NCBI GenBank assembly: GCA_013361065.1
Contig: JABWAK010000011.1
Coordinates: 1-44,404, forward strand
Length of the DNA stretch: 44,404 nt
Source of the DNA: Bacteroidota bacterium
GTDB taxonomy: Bacteria > Bacteroidota > Ignavibacteria > UBA10030 > UBA8401
Reading direction: 5' to 3'
Under the pieces are notes generated by a model. That model saw nothing but the letters and a program-made list of their open reading frames with translations. It searched no databases and had not been told where the DNA came from. Made by a program: the position numbers and the translations under genes. Shown piece after piece: positions 2 through 44,404 of this stretch. Numbering within the stretch: position 1 is the first letter of the stretch; each line of letters starts with the position of its first letter.

Positions 2-232
2 AACACCGCATCCTTATCGACCGATTATCGAATCGGTCCGCGGGAAACGAAGATGGAAACATTCACATGGACGGTCCCCAACTCCGCTGCACCAGGGCCC
101 CTCACCGTGCGGGCGGTCCTGAACTATCAAAAACTTCCGACACCTGTCGCTCAATTCCTCAAAGTACCGATGGAGGAAGCGGAGATCATCCAGGTGAACT
201 ATCATGAAACGACCATCACCGTACTCCCGTAA
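2..232 (+). CDS. C-terminal end of a CDS cut by the window start; possibly a (multiheme) cytochrome-associated protein
   Basis: Frame 2 is open from base 2 to the TAA at 230-232 (NTASLSTDYRIGPRETKMETFTW...NYHETTITVLP*). It sits 3 bp upstream of a cytochrome-like gene. Family assignment is weak. Confidence 0.55.
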   Translation, partial: NTASLSTDYRIGPRETKMETFTWTVPNSAAPGPLTVRAVLNYQKLPTPVAQFLKVPMEEAEIIQVNYHETTITVLP

Positions 233-244
233 AAGGTGACCCCT

Positions 245-1396
245 ATGAAGACCATCACTGCATTTCTGACCATCTGTTTCATCTGCTTCTCACAAAACAG
301 CGAAGCGATCCCCGCCTTCGCACGAAAGTACGACATGTCCTGCCAGACCTGTCATTCCCCCGCACCAAAATTGAAAGCGTACGGCGAGGAGTTCGCCGGG
401 AACGGATTCCGGCTTGCGGACAAGGAGAATCCCCGGTTCTTCCGTGAGACCGGCGACGATCAGCTCCAGCTGATGCGAGAACTTCCGCTGGCACTACGCG
501 TGGAAGGATACGCACGCTGGCAGCCGCAGACGAACCATCGGGCGGACATGCAGGCGCCGTACCTTCTGAAGCTCCTTTCGGGCGGACAGATCGCAAAGGA
601 TGTCTCGTACTATTTCTATTTCTTCTTCGGTGAACGGGGAAGTGTTGCCGGATTGGAGGATGCGTTCGTCATGTTCAACAATGTCTGGGGGAGCGATGCG
701 GATGTATACATCGGTCAGTTCCAGGTGAGCGACCCTCTCTTCAAACGGGAACTGCGGTTGACACTGGAAGACTATCAGATCTACAAGACCGCACCCGGAA
801 ACTCCGCATTGGATCTGACGTACGACCGCGGTATCATGGTCACCTACTCTCTTCCCACGAACACCGACCTGACCGTTGAACTGCTGAACGGCAGCGGAAT
901 CGGCGCAGCGGACGCGATGCGGAATTTCGACACTGACCTATATAAGAACCTCTTCGTCCGCGCATCACAGGATGTCACTGAGGGCATCCGCATCGGCGGT
1001 TTTGCGTACCTCGGGAATGAGGAACAGTTGAGCCGCACCAACGCCGTCTGGATCGCCGGCCCGGATCTCTCCATCGCGTTCGAACCGATCGAACTGAACA
1101 TCCAGTATGTGGAGCGACGTGACGACAATCCCTCGTTCCTTGCCGTGAAACGAACGGTCGAAACTCGCGGCAGCATGGCCGAAGCAGTGTATGCACCGGA
1201 CGGGGATAAGAGTACATGGTACGGCGCCATGGTCTACAATTGGGCGGAGATCAATGATCAAGGATATAAATACAACACCATCACCGGACACTATACGTAT
1301 ATGCTTGCGCGGAACCTCCGGTTGATCGGCGAATACACTTATGATATAGAGCGGAAAGGCAATAAATTCACCGCCGGATTCATCGGCGCGTTCTAG
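245..1396 (+). CDS. Outer-membrane beta-barrel-like protein with a single N-terminal c-type heme motif (CQTCH)
   Basis: Signal peptide MKTITAFLTICFICFSQNSEA, then IPAFARKYDMSCQTCHSPAPKLKAYGEEFAGNGFRL (CxxCH), then long amphipathic beta-rich sequence ending in aromatic residues (AGFIGAF). ORF 236..1396; start moved to the MKT Met. Confidence 0.7.
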   Translation: MKTITAFLTICFICFSQNSEAIPAFARKYDMSCQTCHSPAPKLKAYGEEFAGNGFRLADKENPRFFRETGDDQLQLMRELPLALRVEGYARWQPQTNHRADMQAPYLLKLLSGGQIAKDVSYYFYFFFGERGSVAGLEDAFVMFNNVWGSDADVYIGQFQVSDPLFKRELRLTLEDYQIYKTAPGNSALDLTYDRGIMVTYSLPTNTDLTVELLNGSGIGAADAMRNFDTDLYKNLFVRASQDVTEGIRIGGFAYLGNEEQLSRTNAVWIAGPDLSIAFEPIELNIQYVERRDDNPSFLAVKRTVETRGSMAEAVYAPDGDKSTWYGAMVYNWAEINDQGYKYNTITGHYTYMLARNLRLIGEYTYDIERKGNKFTAGFIGAF

Positions 1397-6166: not shown

Positions 6167-8476
6167 TCAATGTGGTTCCGTACCGATCCCGAACGGCAGA
6201 TGGACACGCAAGACGATGTCGCGTCCCGGATTGTCTATGAAGTACCGAAACCGGCTCAGGTAATCCCTGTATGCGGTGTTGAAGATGTTCTGGACGGACA
6301 CATTGCACCGGACCAGATGCGGTCCCATGATGAACTCGATGCCGTACTCGAGATCGAAGAGCATATATCCTGCCGGCGGGGGCAGATAATCGGCATTGAC
6401 AGGTACGCGGGTCTGCCGTGTCACCGCGGTCGCGGTCAGTTCCAGATACGATTCCTCGGCTCCCAGATGCCGCGGCAGATGATAGTGCATCCAGAGACGC
6501 GCACGGTCGGACGGCATCTGGTAGAGCGGTTCGTTCCGCACGACATCATCCGCGATCACCATGGAGAGTGATGCACCGAGCCGGACATCATCGGCCACCT
6601 CCAGGTCGGCAGAGGCATCAACGCCGCGCATCAGCACATCGGTCTGCCGGTAGAGCATCGTTGGAAAGATCCCGCGCAGTGTCAGCGTCGGCTGCGGAGA
6701 GGGGAACGCGAAGATGAAATCCTCCATCCGGTTCAGGAACAATCCGATCTCGGCGGAACTCCGCTCGGCACGGTGCTTCAGGGTCAGATCCAGACTGAAA
6801 CTCCGTTCCGGTACCAGCGTCTTGTCCCCGATCTCGAACTGCGCCGTTCCGTGGTGGACGCCGAAACTGTACAGTTCATTCACGGTGGGAGGCCGCCAGC
6901 CAGTACCGGCATTCACATTGACGGACCATTCCGGCTGGAACTGATAGATCGCACCGACGGCGCCCGAGGCGCTCGTATAGTCATGCTGTGTCTGTGCGAT
7001 CCCCCGCTGCGGATTCGCATAGACCTCGAGCGACTGCACATCGAACCGGCCGCCGGCGCTCAGCGTGAGCAGCTGTTCGGAGTACGATTCCAGCAGATAG
7101 ATGCCGCCGGAATGCGAACGGAAGTTGGGGATCAGGAAACTGAGTCCCTGCGCGACATTCCCCTGACGCATGGCACTGATGCCGATGGTTCCGTAGAGTC
7201 CGCCGATCGGCGTATGGACGAACTTCACATCGCCGCTGTATGATGTGAGGGTCAGGTCGAAGTTCGCTTTGCCGCGGGAGCGGGCATGACCGTCATATTC
7301 TTGACGGCCGTTGCTCTGCCATCCGTACTGCGCTTCGATCGTCCCCGCACCGGGCAGCACGTATGACGTGCGCACCGACCAGAGGTCGTGGGTGATCTCC
7401 TGTTTCGGCGGTTGGATATCGTACGTGAAGGAATATTCTGTCAGCGGACCTCCGGCAGCGAGTGCGCGGTTCAGATCGTCCAGATTGCCGAGATGCGACC
7501 CGCTGTAGATCCCCAGCGTCGTGCCGAAGTGACTATAGTACGCTTCCACGGACAGAACGTCCGTCATGTACCCGACCGCTGCTGAACCATCCGCCTCGGT
7601 GAACCCCGAATTGCCGATCACATATCCCGGCGCCGATGCACTGCCGGCCTTCCGGCCGCTTCCCTGCACACGCCAGGAGAGTCCGCTCAACAGATCGGGT
7701 CCCCCTTCCACCAGGAGCGAGAGTGCCCCCTGGCGGTTGTTGGTGAAGGTGTTCAGTGAGAGTTCCCCGCCGATGCCGGTGCTGCGGCGCATCTCCCTCG
7801 GCTGCAGTTTGATCACACCGCCGATGGCGCCGGCACCGAACTCCACGCCCGCCACCCCTTTGAGTACTTCGATCTTGGACGGTGCGAACGGATCGATCTC
7901 CGGTGCATGTTCGCCGCCCCATTGCTGTCCCTCCTGCGGCACACCGGCATTCAGCACCTTCACGCGCTGACTGTGGAGCCCGCGGATCACCGGTTTCGCG
8001 ATGGACGGCCCGGTGGAGAGGACGGTCACACCGGTGATGCTCTCCAGTGCCTTACCGATCGTCTGCCCGCGATGCCGGTCCACCTCCTGCGGTGTCATCA
8101 CCGTCACGGACTGGGAAGATGCCGTGAGACCGGAACGATCGACCCGTCCTTCCACATTCACCTCGTTCATCTGGATGTCGGACGGCGTGAGACGGAAGAC
8201 CCTGTGCAGGTCACGGTCCAGGACGATGCGGTGGGTCTGATCCTGATATCCGAGCAGGCGGACGATCACCGTAACGGCGCCCGGCGGCAGTTCGGTGTGG
8301 AACGATCCGTCACGCTCTGTGGCGAGGTGACGCTGATGCTCCACGATGTAGACGGATGCACGTTCCAGCACGGTGTTCACGGTGCTGTCCACGACCGTCC
8401 CGGAGAATGTCACGGACTGTGCGGCACCGATGTGTACGGCCAAAACGAGCAGACAATACCATGCTGCAGGTTTCAT
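6167..8476 (-). CDS. TonB-dependent outer-membrane receptor with N-terminal carboxypeptidase-regulatory-like domain
   Basis: Signal peptide, FSGTVVDSTVNTVLERASVYI...GSFHTELPPGAVTVIVRLLGYQ (CarboxypepD_reg-like), plug domain VTVMTPQEVDRHRGQTIGKALESITGVTVLSTGPSIAKPVIRGLHSQRVKVLNAGVPQEGQQWG, barrel to the C-terminus. Confidence 0.92.
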   Translation of the reverse strand: MKPAAWYCLLVLAVHIGAAQSVTFSGTVVDSTVNTVLERASVYIVEHQRHLATERDGSFHTELPPGAVTVIVRLLGYQDQTHRIVLDRDLHRVFRLTPSDIQMNEVNVEGRVDRSGLTASSQSVTVMTPQEVDRHRGQTIGKALESITGVTVLSTGPSIAKPVIRGLHSQRVKVLNAGVPQEGQQWGGEHAPEIDPFAPSKIEVLKGVAGVEFGAGAIGGVIKLQPREMRRSTGIGGELSLNTFTNNRQGALSLLVEGGPDLLSGLSWRVQGSGRKAGSASAPGYVIGNSGFTEADGSAAVGYMTDVLSVEAYYSHFGTTLGIYSGSHLGNLDDLNRALAAGGPLTEYSFTYDIQPPKQEITHDLWSVRTSYVLPGAGTIEAQYGWQSNGRQEYDGHARSRGKANFDLTLTSYSGDVKFVHTPIGGLYGTIGISAMRQGNVAQGLSFLIPNFRSHSGGIYLLESYSEQLLTLSAGGRFDVQSLEVYANPQRGIAQTQHDYTSASGAVGAIYQFQPEWSVNVNAGTGWRPPTVNELYSFGVHHGTAQFEIGDKTLVPERSFSLDLTLKHRAERSSAEIGLFLNRMEDFIFAFPSPQPTLTLRGIFPTMLYRQTDVLMRGVDASADLEVADDVRLGASLSMVIADDVVRNEPLYQMPSDRARLWMHYHLPRHLGAEESYLELTATAVTRQTRVPVNADYLPPPAGYMLFDLEYGIEFIMGPHLVRCNVSVQNIFNTAYRDYLSRFRYFIDNPGRDIVLRVHLPFGIGTEPH

Positions 8477-9450: not shown

Positions 9451-11310
9451 CTATTTCACTGGTTTTGACGGTGCAAGGACACCCACCGAAACCGAAGAGG
9501 GATACCGTGCACTCCGGTGCAGGGTAATGGTCGCTTTCCGGAAGTCCGATTCCATGGCGGTATAGACGTTTACGAATCGCTGCGGGTTCCGGTCCACAAG
9601 CGGGAACCAGCTGCTCTGCACCTGGACCATGATGGAATGTCCCGGCAGGAAGGTATGATTCACATCCGGCAGTGTGAACCGGACCCGTTCCACCGCCCCG
9701 GGCCGGAGCGCTTCCGGCGATGAGAAGCTGTTCCGGTACCGGGCACGCATCACCTCTCCCCGCACGAGCATCTGATATCCGCTCATTTTCACATGAGGAG
9801 CGTTCGACGGATCATCCTTCGCCGAGTCCGGATAGACATCGATCACCTTCACGATGAAGTCTGCATCCGTTCCGGTCGTCGTCACATAGAGATCCGCCGT
9901 GACAGGACCGGCGATGGTGACCGTATCGCTCACCGGCATGGAATATGACAACACATCGGGACGCTGCCAGGCGAACCGCTGGTCCCCGGTCATATACTCC
10001 CGGCCGCGGTCGTTGCTGATCTCGGCGATGTACGGAACAGGCCGTGCCGGGTCACTGACATATTCATCGGCACCCTTGGTTGCGACCGGCCGTTCGACCG
10101 TCAGCCGTTCACCGGCGTTGAAGTAGAACGACCGCTGAGCTGCTTGTTTCGGCGGCCACTCGCTGTACGCGCGCCAGACATTGCTCCCGGTCTCGAAGGC
10201 CGACACTTCCGGCAGCGGTACCGCTGCCGCCCCTTTCAGATGATGGGCAAAGAAGGCGCGGATATGCCGGTCATAGTATTCCGAACTCTTCACGCCGAAG
10301 CTCACATTGCCGAGCCTGCTGCCGTCCGAGCGGACCCAGCCGCCGTGGAACCACGGTCCCATCATCAACATGGTCCGGTTGACGGGATTATACGTCTCCA
10401 GCGCTTTATAGATCTCGAGCGAGCCGTAGAGATCCTCCGCATCGAACCAGCCGCCGACCAGCAGAACGGCGGGACGGATGTTCTTCATATGCTGTGCCAC
10501 GTTGCGCGCTTTCCAGAACGCATCGTAATCCGGATGGGCGAACACATCGTTCCAGAACTTCGAGGTGTCGCCGTAGTGGGCCTTCTTGATGGAGGCGAGC
10601 GAACCGGCTTCGAGCAGGAACTTGTAACCATCCTCGGTGGGATAGGTGAATCCCGGCGGCCAGGTGGTGCGGAGTTCCGGACGCGGTTTCCCGAAGGAAC
10701 GGAAGAAATTGAACGCATCGATGAGCATCACCGCTCCGTTGTGATGGAAGTCGTCGCCGATGAACCAATCCGAGATCGGCGCCTGCGGCGAGACCGCTTT
10801 CAGCGCCGGGTGTGCATCGATCAGTCCGTGCGCCGCATAGAAGCCGGGATAGGAGATGCCGATCATTCCGACATTGCCGTTGTGTCCTTTCACATTCTTC
10901 AGCAGCCACTCGATGGTATCGAATGCATCGCTGCTCTCATCCACCTGCTGCGGCGTGCTCTTGTTCGGGATATGCGGACGGATATCCTCGAAATCCCCTT
11001 CGGACATGAAACGGCCGCGGACATCCTGAAAGGCCATGATGTATCCCTCCTGCGCCATCCACGCATTGTTCTGTTCGGCCTTCAGATACGATTCGCCGTA
11101 CGGTGCCGTAGTATACGGAGTTCTGCTGAGCATGATGGGATACCGCTTCGTGGTATCCTTCGGCACATAAACGGCCGTGTGGAGCCGCACACCATCCCGC
11201 ATCGGGATGCGGTACTCATATTTGATGTAATCGACCGACAGATCGATCGACTGGGAGAAGAGGAGCGCCGGAAGGAACAGAACAAGGAATCGGGACATAC
11301 TGCGGACCAT
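9451..11310 (-). CDS. CocE/NonD family hydrolase (S15-type X-Pro dipeptidyl-peptidase fold), exported
   Basis: IPMRDGVRLHTAVYVPKDTTKRYPIMLSRTPYTTAPYG, MAQEGYIMAFQDVRGRFMSEGDF and GNVGMIGISYPGFYAAHGLI (nucleophile elbow GISYPG). Confidence 0.9.
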   Translation of the reverse strand: MVRSMSRFLVLFLPALLFSQSIDLSVDYIKYEYRIPMRDGVRLHTAVYVPKDTTKRYPIMLSRTPYTTAPYGESYLKAEQNNAWMAQEGYIMAFQDVRGRFMSEGDFEDIRPHIPNKSTPQQVDESSDAFDTIEWLLKNVKGHNGNVGMIGISYPGFYAAHGLIDAHPALKAVSPQAPISDWFIGDDFHHNGAVMLIDAFNFFRSFGKPRPELRTTWPPGFTYPTEDGYKFLLEAGSLASIKKAHYGDTSKFWNDVFAHPDYDAFWKARNVAQHMKNIRPAVLLVGGWFDAEDLYGSLEIYKALETYNPVNRTMLMMGPWFHGGWVRSDGSRLGNVSFGVKSSEYYDRHIRAFFAHHLKGAAAVPLPEVSAFETGSNVWRAYSEWPPKQAAQRSFYFNAGERLTVERPVATKGADEYVSDPARPVPYIAEISNDRGREYMTGDQRFAWQRPDVLSYSMPVSDTVTIAGPVTADLYVTTTGTDADFIVKVIDVYPDSAKDDPSNAPHVKMSGYQMLVRGEVMRARYRNSFSSPEALRPGAVERVRFTLPDVNHTFLPGHSIMVQVQSSWFPLVDRNPQRFVNVYTAMESDFRKATITLHRSARYPSSVSVGVLAPSKPVK

Positions 11311-16558: not shown

Positions 16559-17890
16559 TTACAGGAGATTGCTCGCCAGTTCGGCGAGTTTGGAGCGTTC
16601 CCCCTTCTCCAGATTGATGTGGGCGTAGATCTTCTGTCCCTGCATCTTCTCGATAAGGTAGCTCAGGCCGTTGGACTGGCTGTCCAGGTACGGATGGTCG
16701 ATCTGATAGATATCGCCGGTCAGGACGATCTTCGTCCCCTCGCCCGCGCGGGTGATGATGGTCTTCACCTCGTGCGGCGTCAGGTTCTGCGCCTCGTCCA
16801 CAATGAAGAAGATCTTCACCAGGCTCCGTCCGCGGATGTAGGAGAGCGCTTCGATGACGAGCTTCTCCTCCTGCAGCATCTGGTCGATGCGCTGGTACTG
16901 CTGGTCCGATTCCTGATACTGGTTCTTGATGACGTTCAGGTTATCGAACAGCGGCTGCATGTACGGATCGAGTTTGGATTCGATGTCGCCGGGAAGGAAT
17001 CCGATATCCTTGTTGGAGAGCGGGACGATGGGACGCGCCATGAAGATCTGGCGGTAGAGCTTCCTCCGTTCGAGCGCAGCGGCGAGCGCCAGCAATGTCT
17101 TGCCGGTGCCCGCTTTGCCGGAGATGGTAACGAGCTGGATGTCCGGATTGAGCAGTGCGTTGAGCGCGAAGATCTGCTCCGCATTGTGCGGCGCGATGCC
17201 GTAGGCGACCGTCTTCTCGATCTTGGAGATGCGCTGGCGCTCCGCATCGAACGTGCCGAGGGCGGACTGCTTGCCGTTGCGCATGATAACGAACTCGTTC
17301 GGACGGAAATGGTTCTCCGGTAGGTCCGCCGGATTCACTTCGTACGGATTCGCATGCAGCCGTGCGATCACCTTCTCCTCCACATTCTCCACCGTGCGGT
17401 GTCCGGTGTAGAGTTCCGTGAGGTCCTTCACCTGATCGTTCTTGTAATCCTGCGCCGGCAGACCGACCGCTTTCGCTTTCATCCGCAGATTCACATCCTT
17501 CGACACGAGGATCACCTCACGGTCGCTCTGTTCCTTCGCGAGCCGGTATGCGGTGTTGAGGATGTGATGATCCGGCTTGCTCTTGGTGAACGAACCGTCG
17601 ATGTCCTTATGGAAATCCTGTTCCAGCCGGACGGTGATCTTGCCCAGCCCTTTGCCGATGGTGATGCCGCCGTTGAAGATATGATCGCCGCTCATGGCAT
17701 CCACGTTCCTCGCGAACTCGCGGGCGTGGAAGTTGATCGATTCGTTCCCTTTCTTGAATGCATCCAGCTCCTCCAGGACGGTGACAGGAATGACCACATC
17801 ATGTTCTTTGAACTGATAGATGCAGGAACTGTCATGGAGTACCACATTGGTGTCGAGCACGAAGATCTTTTTCTTCTTTTTGGTCGCCAT
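16559..17890 (-). CDS. PhoH family protein with N-terminal PIN domain (PhoH2-type)
   Basis: KIFVLDTNVVLHDSSCIYQF (PIN); ISGKAGTGKTLLALAAALE (Walker A); FFIVDEAQNLTPHEVKTIITRAGEGTKIVLTGDIYQID. Confidence 0.93.
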   Translation of the reverse strand: MATKKKKKIFVLDTNVVLHDSSCIYQFKEHDVVIPVTVLEELDAFKKGNESINFHAREFARNVDAMSGDHIFNGGITIGKGLGKITVRLEQDFHKDIDGSFTKSKPDHHILNTAYRLAKEQSDREVILVSKDVNLRMKAKAVGLPAQDYKNDQVKDLTELYTGHRTVENVEEKVIARLHANPYEVNPADLPENHFRPNEFVIMRNGKQSALGTFDAERQRISKIEKTVAYGIAPHNAEQIFALNALLNPDIQLVTISGKAGTGKTLLALAAALERRKLYRQIFMARPIVPLSNKDIGFLPGDIESKLDPYMQPLFDNLNVIKNQYQESDQQYQRIDQMLQEEKLVIEALSYIRGRSLVKIFFIVDEAQNLTPHEVKTIITRAGEGTKIVLTGDIYQIDHPYLDSQSNGLSYLIEKMQGQKIYAHINLEKGERSKLAELASNLL

Positions 17891-18187
17891 TATATTGGGG
17901 AATCCCGGTTGGTGGATGGAATCGGTGGATTAGGGTATGAACGACAATGCCGCATCGGAGGAGGCGGCATCGGTCGATCGGCACAAATTGAGATGGAACG
18001 ACAAACGAATGGGGAAATTCGCACAAAAACGGGGAAATACTCTGATTGTCTTTATTGGCAAGAAGAGTCTCTTGTTCAAGAATCACTTTAAGTCATTGTA
18101 ATAAATACAGTGGAAAGACGCAAGGGGATGGAATGTAAAATCTGAGTGAAATCGGCGGGATGTGATAAAGCGCAGAGGGACCGGACG

Positions 18188-33511: not shown

Positions 33512-34453
33512 TCAGCGTGAGTTCCGCTCCCGGAAGACGTTCCCGTCGAATCCCTGGATGGAGCGGTCGTGTTCCGCCAACTGGAGTCGTTTCTCTGAAA
33601 TAGAAGCAAATTTTTCGTCAATTTCAATTCCTACATACCGCCGCCCGAGCTTTTTTGCGACCACGGAGGTTGTCCCCGAACCGAGGAACGGATCGAGCAC
33701 GACATCGCCTGGCCGGCTGCTGGCAAGGATGATCTTGGCGAGCAGTTTCTCCGGCTTTTGCGTCGGATGCTCGGTATTCTCCGGCATGGACCAGAACGGG
33801 ACGGTCAGGTCGGTCCAGAGGTTTGAAGGATGCGTCAGCCGGAAATTCCCTTCGTCGGTCCGCTTCCAGTCCTTCGGCCGCCCCTGTTCGGTGTACGGTG
33901 CGATCACCTTCCGTTTCATCTTCACGGCGTCCAGCTGGAAGGTATAGCGGTCGGAGACGGTGCAGTACCAGATATCCTCGGATGCATTCTTCCAGTTCGC
34001 CTTCGCACCGCGCCCTTTCTCACGCTCCCAGGTGATGCGGTTGCGGACGATGAAGTACTTCTCCGCCGCCTGCTGCAGCACCGCGGAGGAGCGCCAGTCC
34101 CCGCACAGGTAGACGGAAGCGGTCGGCGTGAGCGTGCGGACAAGTTTCGGGAGCCAGGCATCCAGCCATGCGGCATACGCATCGTGCGATGTGGCGCGGA
34201 AGGTCGCCGCGTTGAACTTCTTCGTGAGATTGTACGGAGGATCGATGAAGAGCAGATCGACGAAGGACGAAGGGAGCAGATCCGCCGCCGTCAAGATATC
34301 ATTCAATAGGGTCCGGTCCAGCACATCGTCCACCGATGCCGGCGACCGGAGCGTGAGCAGTCTCCGCCGGTACCGGGTCTGTTCCGATACCGAGAGAGTG
34401 ATGGTTCTGTTGCGCGGTGCTGCGGGCTTCGTGGGCATGATACGGTCAGGCAC
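33512..34453 (-). CDS. Site-specific DNA methyltransferase (beta-class, DPPY motif), no adjacent restriction gene
   Basis: LLFIDPPYNLTKKFNAATF (motif IV) precedes DVVLDPFLGSGTTSVVAKKLGRRYVGIEID (motif I); HPTQKPEKLLAKII. Confidence 0.92.
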   Translation of the reverse strand: MPDRIMPTKPAAPRNRTITLSVSEQTRYRRRLLTLRSPASVDDVLDRTLLNDILTAADLLPSSFVDLLFIDPPYNLTKKFNAATFRATSHDAYAAWLDAWLPKLVRTLTPTASVYLCGDWRSSAVLQQAAEKYFIVRNRITWEREKGRGAKANWKNASEDIWYCTVSDRYTFQLDAVKMKRKVIAPYTEQGRPKDWKRTDEGNFRLTHPSNLWTDLTVPFWSMPENTEHPTQKPEKLLAKIILASSRPGDVVLDPFLGSGTTSVVAKKLGRRYVGIEIDEKFASISEKRLQLAEHDRSIQGFDGNVFRERNSR

Positions 34454-35348
34454 GGGGATGGAATTGTTTATGCTGTTGTTTCAACTGTTCCCTGTCGATA
34501 TGGGTATAGATCTGTGTGGTGGCGATGTCCGCATGTCCGAGCATCTCCTGCACGGAACGGAGGTCCGCCCCTCCTTCCAGCAGATGGGTGGCGAAGGAAT
34601 GACGGAAGGTATGCGGATGGACCTCTTTCCGGATTCCGGCGCGTCGTGTGTACTCCGCAACGATGTTCCAGACCGCGACCCGCGAGAGACCTCCGCCGCG
34701 GAAATTCAGGAAGAGCGCGTCGGTGGCCTTCCCCCGCTTGAGCAGTGTACCGCGCAGCCGCTGGCGGTATTCCTTGACCCATTGCAATGCATGTCCGCCG
34801 ATCGGCACCAGCCGTTCCTTGGAGCCTTTCCCGAACACCCGCACCAGTTGCTGCTCTTCCAGAATGCTGTGGAGTGTCAGCCCGGCGAGCTCCGAGACGC
34901 GCATGCCGGTGGCATAGAGCGTTTCCAGGATCGCACGGTCCCGCCAGACGAATGGTCCTGCTGTTTCGGATGCCGGGTCGGCTGCTTCCAGCACGGCATT
35001 CATCTCCTGCACACTCAGCACCTCGGGAAGATGTTTCCCCTTCTTCGGCAGGTCGATGTTTTGCGTCGGATCGGTGACGGTCACCTTCTCGCCGGAAAGG
35101 AACCGGTGCAGTCCTTTCACGGCCGAGATGTTCCTGGCGATGCTGCGGGGGGAGAGTTCCGCATCCCGCAGGGAGCGGATGAATCCCGAGACATGCTCCT
35201 CCGTCACCGCCGCGAATCCCTGCAGACCGGCATCGGTCAGGAACCGGACGTAGCGGACGATATCGCGTTCGTACGCTTCGACGGAATTCCCCGCCAGGCT
35301 CTTCTCCAGCTGGATGAACCGGATATAGGAGCGGATGTCGAAACTCAT
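34446..35348 (-). CDS. xerD: Site-specific tyrosine recombinase XerD/XerC-type
   Basis: ATGMRVSELAGLTL (Arg), HPHTFRHSFATHLLEGGADLRSVQEMLGHADIATTQIYTHI (HxxR...H/Y). Confidence 0.9.
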   Translation of the reverse strand: MSFDIRSYIRFIQLEKSLAGNSVEAYERDIVRYVRFLTDAGLQGFAAVTEEHVSGFIRSLRDAELSPRSIARNISAVKGLHRFLSGEKVTVTDPTQNIDLPKKGKHLPEVLSVQEMNAVLEAADPASETAGPFVWRDRAILETLYATGMRVSELAGLTLHSILEEQQLVRVFGKGSKERLVPIGGHALQWVKEYRQRLRGTLLKRGKATDALFLNFRGGGLSRVAVWNIVAEYTRRAGIRKEVHPHTFRHSFATHLLEGGADLRSVQEMLGHADIATTQIYTHIDREQLKQQHKQFHPRA

Positions 35349-39985: not shown

Positions 39986-40942
39986 ATGAAGCATCCACCG
40001 TACCTCCGTTCGTCCGATGCGGTCACCCTGCTCTTCCTGGTCATCGTGACCGTCATCCATCTGCTCTTCGCTGATCGGATCCCCCATTGGTCTTCCGCTG
40101 TCGTCACCAACCTGCTGCTGGGAACGGCGATCGTCCTCAGCGCACGCAGCGTCCACCGCCGCGGAGCACAAAGTAATCTCGCCGTGCGGCTCTTCCGGGA
40201 TTGGTACCTCGTCCCGAGCATCCTGATCATCTACACGCAGACCTCCGCCGCTGCCTTTCCGCTGCATGGCCGCGATTTCGACACGGTGCTCATCGCTGCG
40301 GACCGCTGGCTCTTCGGCACCGATCCGACGCATTGGGCCGGGCAGTTCGCCCATCCGGTGCTGACCGAGCTCCTGCAGCTGGCGTATTCCTCCTACTATC
40401 TTTTCTTCATCGTGCTGTTCTATGAACTGTACCGTCGGGAGGACCACACCTGGTTCCGCAGCGGAGCGATGCTGGTCGTGTACGGATTCTATCTCTCCTA
40501 CATCGGCTACATGCTCGTCCCGGCGGTCGGTCCGCGCTTCACCCTGCACGACTTCACGATGACCGATGCCGAATTGCCCGGGCTGTTCCTGACCGAGTAT
40601 CTCCGCGCCTTCATCAACGCCGGAGGAGGAGCGCCGGCCGGCACCGCCGATCCGCTGCTCACGGTGCACCGCGATGCCTTCCCCAGCGGTCATACCCAGC
40701 TGACGCTAGTCGCCATGTACATCGCCGTCGCTGCCCGCACCCGCATCCGCTGGTGGCTCGTGGCCGGCGGAACGCTCCTGATCATCTCCACCATCTACCT
40801 GCGCTACCATTATGTGATCGATGTGCTGGCCGGGATGCTGTTCTTTCTCTTCACGATCTGGTCCGGCCGCCGGATCGATGCGTGGTGGAACCGGAAGCAG
40901 ATAACATCGGCGGGTGAGCAAATCAATAGTGACGTTAGCTGA
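39986..40942 (+). CDS. PAP2 superfamily (lipid) phosphatase
   Basis: VGPRFTLHDF, HRDAFPSGHTQLTLVAMYIA and YLRYHYVIDVLAGMLF: PAP2 motifs. Confidence 0.85.
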   Translation: MKHPPYLRSSDAVTLLFLVIVTVIHLLFADRIPHWSSAVVTNLLLGTAIVLSARSVHRRGAQSNLAVRLFRDWYLVPSILIIYTQTSAAAFPLHGRDFDTVLIAADRWLFGTDPTHWAGQFAHPVLTELLQLAYSSYYLFFIVLFYELYRREDHTWFRSGAMLVVYGFYLSYIGYMLVPAVGPRFTLHDFTMTDAELPGLFLTEYLRAFINAGGGAPAGTADPLLTVHRDAFPSGHTQLTLVAMYIAVAARTRIRWWLVAGGTLLIISTIYLRYHYVIDVLAGMLFFLFTIWSGRRIDAWWNRKQITSAGEQINSDVS

Positions 40943-40994: not shown

Positions 40995-41022
40995 AAAAAT
41001 CCTGCCATAAGCAGGATTTTTT
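40995..41022. terminator. Rho-independent terminator
   Basis: AAAAATCCTGC-CATAA-GCAGGATTTTTT, flanked by A-run and T-run. Confidence 0.85.
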
Positions 41023-41026
41023 GTTG

Positions 41027-41079
41027 TACTCCCGACGGGAATCGAACCCGTGTCGCAAGCTTGATAAAGCAGTGGGAGT
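41027..41079 (-). other. tRNA-like remnant: acceptor strands plus intact T-arm, no D-arm or normal anticodon arm
   Basis: Minus strand ACTCCCACTGCTTTATCAAGCTTGCGACACGGGTTCGATTCCCGTCGGGAGTA: T-arm ACGGG-TTCGATT-CCCGT followed by CGGGAGT, with ACTCCC able to pair as a 5' acceptor; only 53 nt in total. Confidence 0.6.
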
Positions 41080-41369
41080 TATCATTCTTACGAAAATAGC
41101 CAATTAAACACCATCCCCTCAAAGAACATCCACCATAACCGCACACCGTTTGTAGACCTTAGAAATTAGAACTACCTTCGCTATAGTCAAGAATTAATAA
41201 TCATTTATTTTATAAAAATATTCAATTGAAATACTTTTAGGAATCTCACATAATTAAAATAAGACCATTATCTCTTCGTTGTTTAATTAAAGTACCGTGA
41301 ATACGTGATTGCTAAGATGATATAATGTCGCTATTCTGAAATATGGTTATTTCTTATCTGGGAGGTTAT

Positions 41370-44300
41370 ATGTCACGTTTTTCGATAAATGTATTTCAGT
41401 CCATTCTTATGGTATCAATTTGTTTAGGTCAATCGATTCCACCGAGAATTACTGACTTTTTTCCCAAACAGGGAACTGTAGGAACAATAGTTACAATTCA
41501 AGGCAATAATTTTGGCTCGGTAATCTCAGAGGTAATATTAACGATAGGGGATGTTAGATCGGAGATTATTACACTATCGAATACAGAAATAAAAGCAAAG
41601 GTCCCCGCCGGGAATACATATGCCAATATTCGTGTAACAAATCTTGTTACCGGTTTAATTGGTGGTTCGCATACTCCATTTATAACTACCTTTCCTAATG
41701 GAAATATAAAAGGGGATGCATTGTTTGCGCCGAGAATAAGTTTTAGTTATTCAGGTACAACCGGTGGTTTTGGTGTATCAGACTTTGATTCTGATGGGCT
41801 GATTGATGCCGTTACTTCGGTACATACACACAATGTGATAAGCATATTTCGGAATCAATCAATTGATAGCACCATATCATATTCAACACCCCATAATTTC
41901 TCTACCGACCTTTCTCCGAGAAGCATAAAAATCACAGATATTAATTCGGATGGTAAACCGGATATCCTCGTAACGTGTAACAGCTCAAACAATGTTAATG
42001 TATTTAAGAATATTAGTACAGTAGGTGCAATAAAATTTCAAAAAGTACAAAGTATTATTACGAACAATGGTCCTAAAGGTATTGATGCACAGGACATCAA
42101 TGGAGACGGCAAAGTCGATATTATCGTCGGTTATAACTTTAACGGTATCTCGATTGTAAAAAATACTTCAATAGATACTAGTATATCATTTGCTCAAAAA
42201 CAGGATTTCACATTTAGCACTGAGGGTGGTGTATACCTACAAGATTTGGATAGAGATGACAAGCATGAGATAGTAATTATTAATCACAACCTAAATAGCA
42301 TTTCGGTCTATCCAAACTTATCGACATCAAGCTCTATCTCATTTGGAGCAAAAAAAGATTACAGCACATCTGCATATCCTAATGGACTATCATTCGGAGA
42401 TGTTAATAATGATGATAAAATAGATATTGTGGTGAGCAATTACTCAGGTGTAACAATATCAATATTCAAGAATGTTAGCACCGTGGGGAATGTTGTATTG
42501 GAATCTAAAAAAGATTTTCACGTAGGCACAAATCCAAATCAGTTAAGCATCGGCGATGTTTCCGGAGATGGTAATAATGATATTGTGTTGTCGAGAACTT
42601 ATGCCGATAAAGTATCAATATTGAAAAATATGAACAGTATGGATACAATTGCATTTGATTTAGTCGGTGAGTTATCCACCGGCGCGAATCCTGCGTTCAC
42701 ATATGTCGTGGATATTAATAAGGATGGTAAATATGACATTCTTGTTCTAAATGGAAACAGTAACAATTTTTCTGTTATGCGTAATATTTCCATAACTGCA
42801 TCAAAACCCACTGGGTTAATTGCATATTATCCGTTTAATGGAAATGCAAATGATGAAAGTGGATTGGGTAATAATGGGGTTGTAAATGGTGCCATATTGG
42901 CCAATGATCGATTTGGGAAATCCGGTAAGGCGTATAGTTTTAATGGTCAAAATACCAGCATCGCTGTGCCGCACAGTGAAGTTCTAAATATTACTGGTGA
43001 GATGACTATGGCCTTTTGGTTCAAGAGCATCAATCCTCCCGCATTAAATAATAGTCATACGATTTTAGCGAAAAGAAATGATGAATTTGCGAGCCCTGGA
43101 ATTGGTATACCGTATGGTGTTACAATCAACTATTCCGACTCTTTAACAAATCAAAAAGTGTTATTGTATTCGACCAAAAACAGTATCTGGAATAATGCAC
43201 AACAAACAGCGAAGGTGAAAATTAACGATTGGCAGTTTTGTGCAATAGTTGTAAAAGGTGACACGTCAAGATTTTATCTCGATGGTTCATATGTTGAATC
43301 GCGATATTTTCCTTCTGAAAATCGTATGACGAACAATTTACCCTTGCTTATTGGCTCTTCGGGGAAAACAGCAGGCAGTGAATATTTTAATGGTCAGATC
43401 GATGATATCAGAATCTATAATATTCCACTTGGTGATTCTGAAATAAAAGATCTGTTCAATTACCAAGAACCTGTGGTTATTCCAATATCCTTAATGACGA
43501 ATGCAATATCCTCACATCAAATTGATATTGTTTGGAAAATGAATTTGCAGGAGCCAATTTCAGTATATCATATATTGCGAACGGAGTCTCTGGATTCAGG
43601 TTTCACATTGATAGATTCGGTCACTTCAAGTGTTATTACCTATCGAGATAAATCTGTGTTACCGAATACTAACTATTGGTATAAGGTAAACGGGATTAAT
43701 CCAGCAAGACAAATATTCCAATCAAATGCCAGTAATGTCAGAACATTTATCGCAGATAGTAGTTTAAATATTCAGAGCATTTTTGACGTTCCTAATGACC
43801 AAGGCAAACAGGTTTATATTCGCTGGGCTACGGGTACGAATTTTTCAAAGTATGTAATCATACGAAGGGATGGTCCAATGTGGGTATTCATGAAAGAGGT
43901 GCCAAGCTATAACCAAGGTTCTTATTCAACCATAGTGCACACTTTATTTGATTCAACAGTATCGTTTGGCCAACGGCGGACAGTGTTCAGTATTATAGGG
44001 GTATTAGATAATGGCTCGGCTGCAATTTCTAAACCGGATAGCGGATACTCTATAGATAACCTCCGTCCGAATTCACCGCATGGTATAATTTCATTTTATA
44101 GGAACAACAAAATTGTGGTGGGATGGAAGGGCAATGTTGAAGAGGACGTTAGTCATTATAAGGTATATCGCAGTAATTCTGAGATTATGAATGTGTCAAA
44201 TATGCCTCACTATGCTACAACATCCGATACAGCATTTATAGACGATAACGTTGTCCCTAACCAACGATACTATTACGTTGTTGTAGCAGCTGATTTCTCG

Positions 44301-44404
44301 GGCAATGAAAGTGGTATTAGTAACAACTCGAGTATTTTGGCAACAGATATAGTAGAAGATAATCAGATGGTTCCAATATTTTATACTATTGAACAAAATT
44401 ATCC
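41370..44404 (+). CDS. Secreted multidomain protein (IPT/TIG, FG-GAP propeller, LamG-like, FN3-like, start of T9SS C-terminal sorting domain); 3' end cut by the window
   Basis: SD GGGAGG just upstream of the ATG at 41370; frame read as open to the window end (...VEDNQMVPIFYTIEQNYP). Missing from the ORF track, presumably because no stop lies in the window. Confidence 0.88.
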   Translation, partial: MSRFSINVFQSILMVSICLGQSIPPRITDFFPKQGTVGTIVTIQGNNFGSVISEVILTIGDVRSEIITLSNTEIKAKVPAGNTYANIRVTNLVTGLIGGSHTPFITTFPNGNIKGDALFAPRISFSYSGTTGGFGVSDFDSDGLIDAVTSVHTHNVISIFRNQSIDSTISYSTPHNFSTDLSPRSIKITDINSDGKPDILVTCNSSNNVNVFKNISTVGAIKFQKVQSIITNNGPKGIDAQDINGDGKVDIIVGYNFNGISIVKNTSIDTSISFAQKQDFTFSTEGGVYLQDLDRDDKHEIVIINHNLNSISVYPNLSTSSSISFGAKKDYSTSAYPNGLSFGDVNNDDKIDIVVSNYSGVTISIFKNVSTVGNVVLESKKDFHVGTNPNQLSIGDVSGDGNNDIVLSRTYADKVSILKNMNSMDTIAFDLVGELSTGANPAFTYVVDINKDGKYDILVLNGNSNNFSVMRNISITASKPTGLIAYYPFNGNANDESGLGNNGVVNGAILANDRFGKSGKAYSFNGQNTSIAVPHSEVLNITGEMTMAFWFKSINPPALNNSHTILAKRNDEFASPGIGIPYGVTINYSDSLTNQKVLLYSTKNSIWNNAQQTAKVKINDWQFCAIVVKGDTSRFYLDGSYVESRYFPSENRMTNNLPLLIGSSGKTAGSEYFNGQIDDIRIYNIPLGDSEIKDLFNYQEPVVIPISLMTNAISSHQIDIVWKMNLQEPISVYHILRTESLDSGFTLIDSVTSSVITYRDKSVLPNTNYWYKVNGINPARQIFQSNASNVRTFIADSSLNIQSIFDVPNDQGKQVYIRWATGTNFSKYVIIRRDGPMWVFMKEVPSYNQGSYSTIVHTLFDSTVSFGQRRTVFSIIGVLDNGSAAISKPDSGYSIDNLRPNSPHGIISFYRNNKIVVGWKGNVEEDVSHYKVYRSNSEIMNVSNMPHYATTSDTAFIDDNVVPNQRYYYVVVAADFSGNESGISNNSSILATDIVEDNQMVPIFYTIEQNY
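41781..42743 (+). repeat. Seven FG-GAP/VCBS-type Asp-rich calcium-loop repeats at a ~156-bp period
   Basis: DFDSDGLID, DINSDGKPD, DINGDGKVD, DLDRDDKHE, DVNNDDKID, DVSGDGNND and DINKDGKYD start at 41781, 41937, 42093, 42243, 42399, 42555 and 42711. Confidence 0.9.
42813..43470 (+). other. LamG/concanavalin-A-like domain within the long CDS
   Basis: GLIAYYPFNGNANDESGLGNNGVVNGAILANDRFGKSGKAYSFNGQNTSIAVPHS...YFNGQIDDIRIYNIPLGDSEIKDLFN. Confidence 0.85.

Follow-up and report, generated by a model that had tools for sequence, protein, structure and literature searches.

A tRNA gene fragment that lies where GC-rich DNA turns AT-rich may be the edge of an inserted element, the remnant of a duplicated gene or a small RNA in its own right, and the question is which of these applies at the locus described here. 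The window, by which the whole 44,404 nt stretch of DNA analysed is meant, is contig C231 of the 3.81 Mb assembly of an uncultured Ignavibacteria-type bacterium. A preliminary description, made from its letters, had reported a 53 nt tRNA-like element on the minus strand, with an intact T-arm and 3' acceptor strand, an upstream ACTCCC able to pair with the latter and a strong terminator behind it, and had read it as a possible island edge or, alternatively, as a minimal tRNA-like RNA. Features of this locus and of related loci are collected in Table 1.

Table 1. Positions of features at the studied locus and at other loci of the clade
Feature	Sequence	Position	Strand	Remarks
XerD recombinase gene	window	34446-35348	-	TIGR02225 above cut-off; host side, 6.5 kb from fragment
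PAP2-type phosphatase gene	window	39986-40942	+	host flank; tRNA-His and tRNA-Glu come next in relatives, with like orientation
Terminator hairpin after fragment	window	40995-41022	-	taken as the host's original tRNA-Glu terminator; homologous hairpin 3' of intact tRNA-Glu in relatives
tRNA-Glu(UUC) 3' half, anticodon arm to 3' end	window	41026-41070	-	putative displaced host fragment (attR-like)
Conserved element end (arm)	window	41059-41139	-	in front of fragment, overlapping its anticodon loop; from alignment and profile; further copies on C158 and in L245
AT-rich cargo gene	window	41370-44404	+	secreted TIG/FG-GAP/LamG protein; runs off contig end, T9SS tail continuing on C158 (3223 down to 3021)
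GIY-YIG gene	L095 (G000)	8017-8283		at tRNA-Arg-TCT
GIY-YIG gene	L104 (G000)	121-384		at tRNA-Pro-GGG
GIY-YIG gene	L145 (G005)	near 17810-18080		at tRNA-Pro-CGG
GIY-YIG genes	L217, L228 (G031)			
tRNA-Thr-CGT	L150 (G005:C76)	10070-10143	-	intact
tRNA-Thr fragments	L150 (G005:C76)	7883-7835, 1923-1876		anticodon-loop fragments, located downstream of the intact gene at distances of 2.2 and 8.1 kb

The 25-mer ACGGGTTCGATTCCCGTCGGGAGTA was found at two places in the assembly at ≤3 mismatches: in the window (41027-41051, minus strand) and on contig C158 (2737-2761, plus strand), where the T-arm and 3' acceptor strand described earlier recur identically within an intact tRNA-Glu(TTC) gene (C158:2690-2764) adjoining tRNA-His. 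This gene and the fragment are 97.8% identical over 45 aligned columns, their anticodon loops differing by one extra A (GCTTTATCAAGC against GCTTTTCAAGC); the fragment breaks in that loop and its remainder runs to the tRNA 3' end. The C158 copy was the sole tRNA-Glu(TTC) reported by ARAGORN around the tRNA genes of the genome. In the window, ARAGORN returned no tRNA, and Rfam returned no family at gathering score and no tRNA or tmRNA model at threshold, so a complete tRNA or tmRNA was not recovered there. Most simply, the fragment would represent a 3' half displaced from the only tRNA-Glu(UUC) gene of the host. The tRNA-derived 3' part of the 53 nt element was thus real, but the tRNA part proper spans only about 45 nt, and the 5' part of the element matched a mobile-element-like end more closely than it matched a tRNA.

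The terminator hairpin was confirmed at its described position. Homologues of it follow the intact tRNA-Glu in relatives G006, G018, G007, G005 and G002; in the studied genome the intact gene encodes its CCA and is followed by an unrelated terminator. Because the relatives' intact tRNA-Glu carries the homologous hairpin, the fragment and terminator together were taken as the host's old tRNA end. Most simply, then, the C158 gene has a replaced 3' end, as predicted for integration into a tRNA gene, the principle and subsites of which have been set out (PMC4383910).

To the right of the fragment, the reported sharp change in composition was borne out, GC falling from ~0.60 to 0.35 across 40.75-41.25 kb, as was the presence of a gene of secreted type. 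This part of the window consists of one ORF, whose likely start follows a GGGAGG ribosome-binding-like site (41360-41365) and whose product contains TIG, FG-GAP and LamG domains. Its GC content is 0.36 and its GC3 0.31, versus ~0.60 and ~0.81 in two neighbouring genes; ten other loci in the genome encoding type IX secretion (T9SS) proteins have 49-59% GC. The ORF halts at the contig edge, in QNYP. Read towards tRNA-Glu, C158 opens with VKLSVFNTLGQQV..., which corresponds to the T9SS sorting domain from position 23 onward; this tail matched positions 23-60 of the 72 in the domain (TIGR04183/PF18962) at 22.7 bits against a cut-off of 23, the first third of the domain falling in the contig gap. 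Judged by its domains, the cargo appears to be a type IX-secreted, adhesin-like protein of ~1,100 codons, transcribed towards the tRNA. No relatives of the cargo protein were found in named genomes, and within the family its FG-GAP part alone has relatives.

C231 and C158 were placed end to end because of synteny (the far end of C158 matches the gene adjoining tRNA-Glu in G006), because the T9SS gene is split between them exactly at the NYPNPFNP motif, and because the repeat AACNYCCACTGCWTTATCAAGCYTG is unique to the two contigs, being found in the genome at ≤3 mismatches only at C158:2884-2908 and at 41056-41080 (minus strand) of the window. The ~20 residues missing between the contigs are the repeated NYPNPFNP motif, and contigs C95 and C280 end at the identical position of the T9SS domain. 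If the join that we infer holds, the insert between tRNA-Glu and the fragment appears to be ~3.85 kb long and to contain one gene. In the family the gene order is PAP2, tRNA-His, tRNA-Glu, in one direction throughout; in the studied genome the fragment points at PAP2, opposite to the ancestral order, and the tRNA block with its insert therefore appears to have been inverted relative to PAP2, an extra step that counts against an inserted element as the explanation.

The arm preceding the fragment agrees with C158:2827-2905 at 48 of 73 aligned positions and the sequence before the tRNA-Glu fragment of locus L245, from another genus, at 41 of 73. None of 5000 shuffles, which preserved base composition only, reached any of the three pairwise scores. 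The core repeat of the arm is unique to two sites in the genome, the second of them just inside the tRNA side of the insert on C158. The preliminary description had proposed to look for a second att copy beyond the contig edge, and it is there that this second copy of an end repeat lies. The two copies suggest two stacked insertions, the first eroded to ~140 bp. An 82-position profile of the arm run over 294 genomes of the class gave only its own two copies above noise, and the best weak matches, which had no tRNA and no adjoining T-arm, were rejected; the arm was found in two genomes only, a point against an inserted element as the explanation. Since it recurs before an independent tRNA-Glu fragment in the other genus, the arm looks like the end of a mobile element.

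That independent case, L245 (JAGVPT010000111.1, MAG DeMMO3_9), is fully assembled. It consists of tRNA-Glu, a toxin-antitoxin-like pair, a T9SS tail and a tRNA-Glu fragment, 1.47 kb in total. The fragment is identical to tRNA-Glu at 42 of 42 positions, is broken in the anticodon loop and has the same arm in front; it can be seen directly to lie downstream of the intact gene and to be oriented like it.

Other relatives have the tRNA-Glu site without an insert. Of the 13 genomes in which the site could be assessed, 6 (the studied genome, G001, G005, G019, L245 and L247) have a convergent T9SS tail no more than 1 kb beyond tRNA-Glu, against a genome-wide expectation of 0.02 T9SS tails per kb; the binomial P, near 1e-7, is indicative only, the test having been picked after the pattern was seen and the genomes being related. 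On this pattern, tRNA-Glu looks like a landing site used repeatedly across related genera. The window protein shares only the tail with the other genomes' genes at the site, plus one weak stretch with G005, so the T9SS genes there differ between genomes. Between G001 and L245 the DNA of the tail is 81% alike and that of the adjacent PAP2 gene 67%, which suggests, on sequence likeness, transfer between genera. Comparison by eye of position lists gave no general enrichment of T9SS genes at tRNAs; tRNA-Glu alone stood out. A small gene lies between tRNA-His and tRNA-Glu in G018, G002, G005 and G011 (L025, L079, L078 and L032) and is absent in other relatives. We take its product to resemble the four-helix-bundle proteins of 23S rRNA intervening sequences.

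An ancestry by duplication has to be weighed first. The fragment and terminator could descend from a degenerate second tRNA-Glu in tandem, the T9SS gene having later entered between the copies by unrelated recombination. Degenerate or partial second copies of tRNA-Glu do exist in G018, G007 and G005, without a comparable cargo boundary; in each of G000, G003 and G005, 5-8 tRNA genes have partial copies nearby; and ACTCCC and CAC..GCTTT before the fragment would fit a tRNA-Glu from which the D-arm has been lost. However, copies in the clade usually have a hairpin insert, and the fragment in the window has none; intact genes of the clade usually keep their native terminator, and that of the studied genome has lost it; and tRNA ancestry leaves unexplained why ~80 nt before the fragment match the arm on C158 and in L245. 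We regard this history as unlikely. A pre-existing degenerate tRNA-Glu copy could have been caught by the insertion, but the same three features speak against it.

Exchange without any recombinase is a good deal less probable. Here DNA of a relative, comprising tRNA-Glu and a downstream T9SS gene, would have recombined through the tRNA as anchor, with an illegitimate join at the opposite end. The lack of a visible integrase fits this, as does the contrast between tail (81%) and PAP2 (67%) in G001 and L245, which points to exchange at the locus; but the arm common to both ends and to L245, and the same anticodon-loop break in L245, would be left unexplained. A functional minimal tRNA-like RNA, to which the fold (z -2.4) with acceptor-like stem, anticodon-like arm and T-arm and the terminator behind it had lent some appeal, was rejected as highly improbable: ACTCCC is present and can pair, but this acceptor 5' strand is not kept in the homologous ends (GTCC on C158, TACCC in L245), the anticodon loop of the fold is reduced to four bases, the T-arm is merely inherited from tRNA-Glu, and no tRNA or tmRNA model reached threshold.

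The locus is most likely a real tRNA-Glu insertion scar left by a small, integrase-less element carrying one T9SS gene, and the 3' half of the host tRNA-Glu was probably displaced by entry of this element at the anticodon loop. Reading the junction as an island edge is supported by the full tRNA elsewhere in the genome, the empty sites of relatives and the second copy of the end repeat. The integrase that the preliminary description had proposed to look for was searched for as well: none was seen in the visible insert, which holds the T9SS gene only, and matches to PF00589 in the assembly were XerD and an Xer-like recombinase, with no others, which counts against the element. We do not regard the XerD gene in the window as belonging to it.

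In the proposed course of events, a small DNA element would have entered the tRNA-Glu(UUC) gene at the anticodon loop and supplied its own tRNA 3' half, so that the tRNA remained functional and the intact copy gained CCA and a different terminator, while the old 3' half and native terminator were pushed to the far edge of the element. Its payload would be one AT-rich T9SS gene bounded by the conserved ~80 nt end, with two elements stacked and the first eroded to ~140 bp. Tyrosine integrases leave behind a broken anticodon loop, a tRNA that has been restored and a conserved arm, as seen here; the recombinase may have acted in trans or have since been lost. More doubtful, and offered tentatively, is the wider proposal of a non-autonomous family, with an ~80 nt end and no recombinase, that repeatedly docks in the tRNA-Glu anticodon loop of this lineage and swaps T9SS surface-protein genes.

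Among known systems, the nearest are tDNA islands, which Islander recognizes by an intact tRNA gene that shares its replicon with a fragment of itself, the end fragment being broken at the anticodon loop, the T-loop or the T/acceptor junction and a 3' fragment having the orientation of the intact gene and lying downstream of it, and which it filters for a non-Xer integrase within the island and a length of 2-200 kb (PMC4383910). Here, intact gene and fragment occur in the same assembly, on two contigs; the fragment runs from the anticodon loop, a known subsite, to the 3' end; and it lies downstream in the same orientation if C231 and C158 join as proposed, in which case the length is ~3.85 kb (1.47 kb in L245). 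The regenerated tRNA at one end, the 3' fragment at the other, the anticodon-loop subsite, the foreign composition and the empty sites in relatives are all as in such islands (PMC4383910). Unlike them, the insert apparently consists of one gene and ~3.85 kb; neither its visible part nor a genome-wide PF00589 search yielded a non-Xer integrase, the tyrosine recombinases of the genome being Xer-type. The insert works like a tDNA island but fails on the integrase, and is for that reason not classed as an autonomous one.

As a control, the 3' repeats of E. coli tyrT/tyrV (rttR/tpr locus, NC_000913.3) are likewise partial 3' tRNA copies downstream of an intact gene; they are tandem, start beside the T-loop and repeat the flank as well, whereas the studied locus has a single copy, situated beyond a gene, that breaks off within the anticodon loop. 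Tandem 3' tRNA repeats of the tyrT type were not found, the genome having one copy of the fragment. Tycheposons and phage satellites are non-autonomous tRNA-targeting elements that, in outline descriptions, bring small cargo to tRNA genes, some possibly being moved in trans. A tycheposon has its own tyrosine recombinase and lineage-specific core genes. By such description, the studied insert resembles these elements in being a small cargo element at a tRNA gene for which a trans recombinase is possible; unlike theirs, its cargo is a T9SS surface protein.

The studied locus further brought to light a pattern, restricted to the lineage, in which broken copies of tRNAs carry hairpins at a single exact position of the T-loop. 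These partial copies lie near intact tRNA genes and are interrupted by hairpin-forming inserts, usually of two hairpins; nearly every break falls exactly behind GTTC in the T-loop (C56^R57). Such copies were found in G000 at L089 (tRNA-Thr-CGT), L091 (Ala-GGC), L098 (Arg-TCG), L101 (Pro-CGG) and L104 (Pro-GGG), and elsewhere at L117, L132, L138 and L139 (G003), L151 (G005) and L207, L208, L215, L217 and L230 (G031); in G073, a distant genome of the same class, 32 tRNAs yielded none. The E. coli tyrV repeats begin two bases further on than this break. The inserts could stem from a site-specific element or else from palindromes at which templates were switched. Small GIY-YIG nuclease genes lie between intact tRNA gene and partial copy at several loci (PF01541 confirmed for three), some of their reading frames extending into the tRNA; from this arrangement they look like homing-endonuclease-type elements. 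A search of open-access papers yielded nothing on point about bacterial tRNA copies that contain GIY-YIG genes or palindromic inserts. In G009, tandem 5'-part copies of tRNA-Val-TAC, Asn-GTT and His-GTG (L180, L187, L192) lie upstream of the intact gene and end in the D-arm, followed by hairpins. At L150, housekeeping-type genes, e.g. an RNA polymerase sigma factor, lie between the intact tRNA-Thr and its fragments.

If the proposed reading is true, inserts of this kind would be skipped by the published Islander filters, which require an integrase and at least 2 kb. With about 150 type IX sorting domains encoded in the genome, it is not obvious by what route such a T9SS set acquires its single genes; repeated landing of one-gene, integrase-less inserts at a tRNA gene would, if true, offer a simple one.
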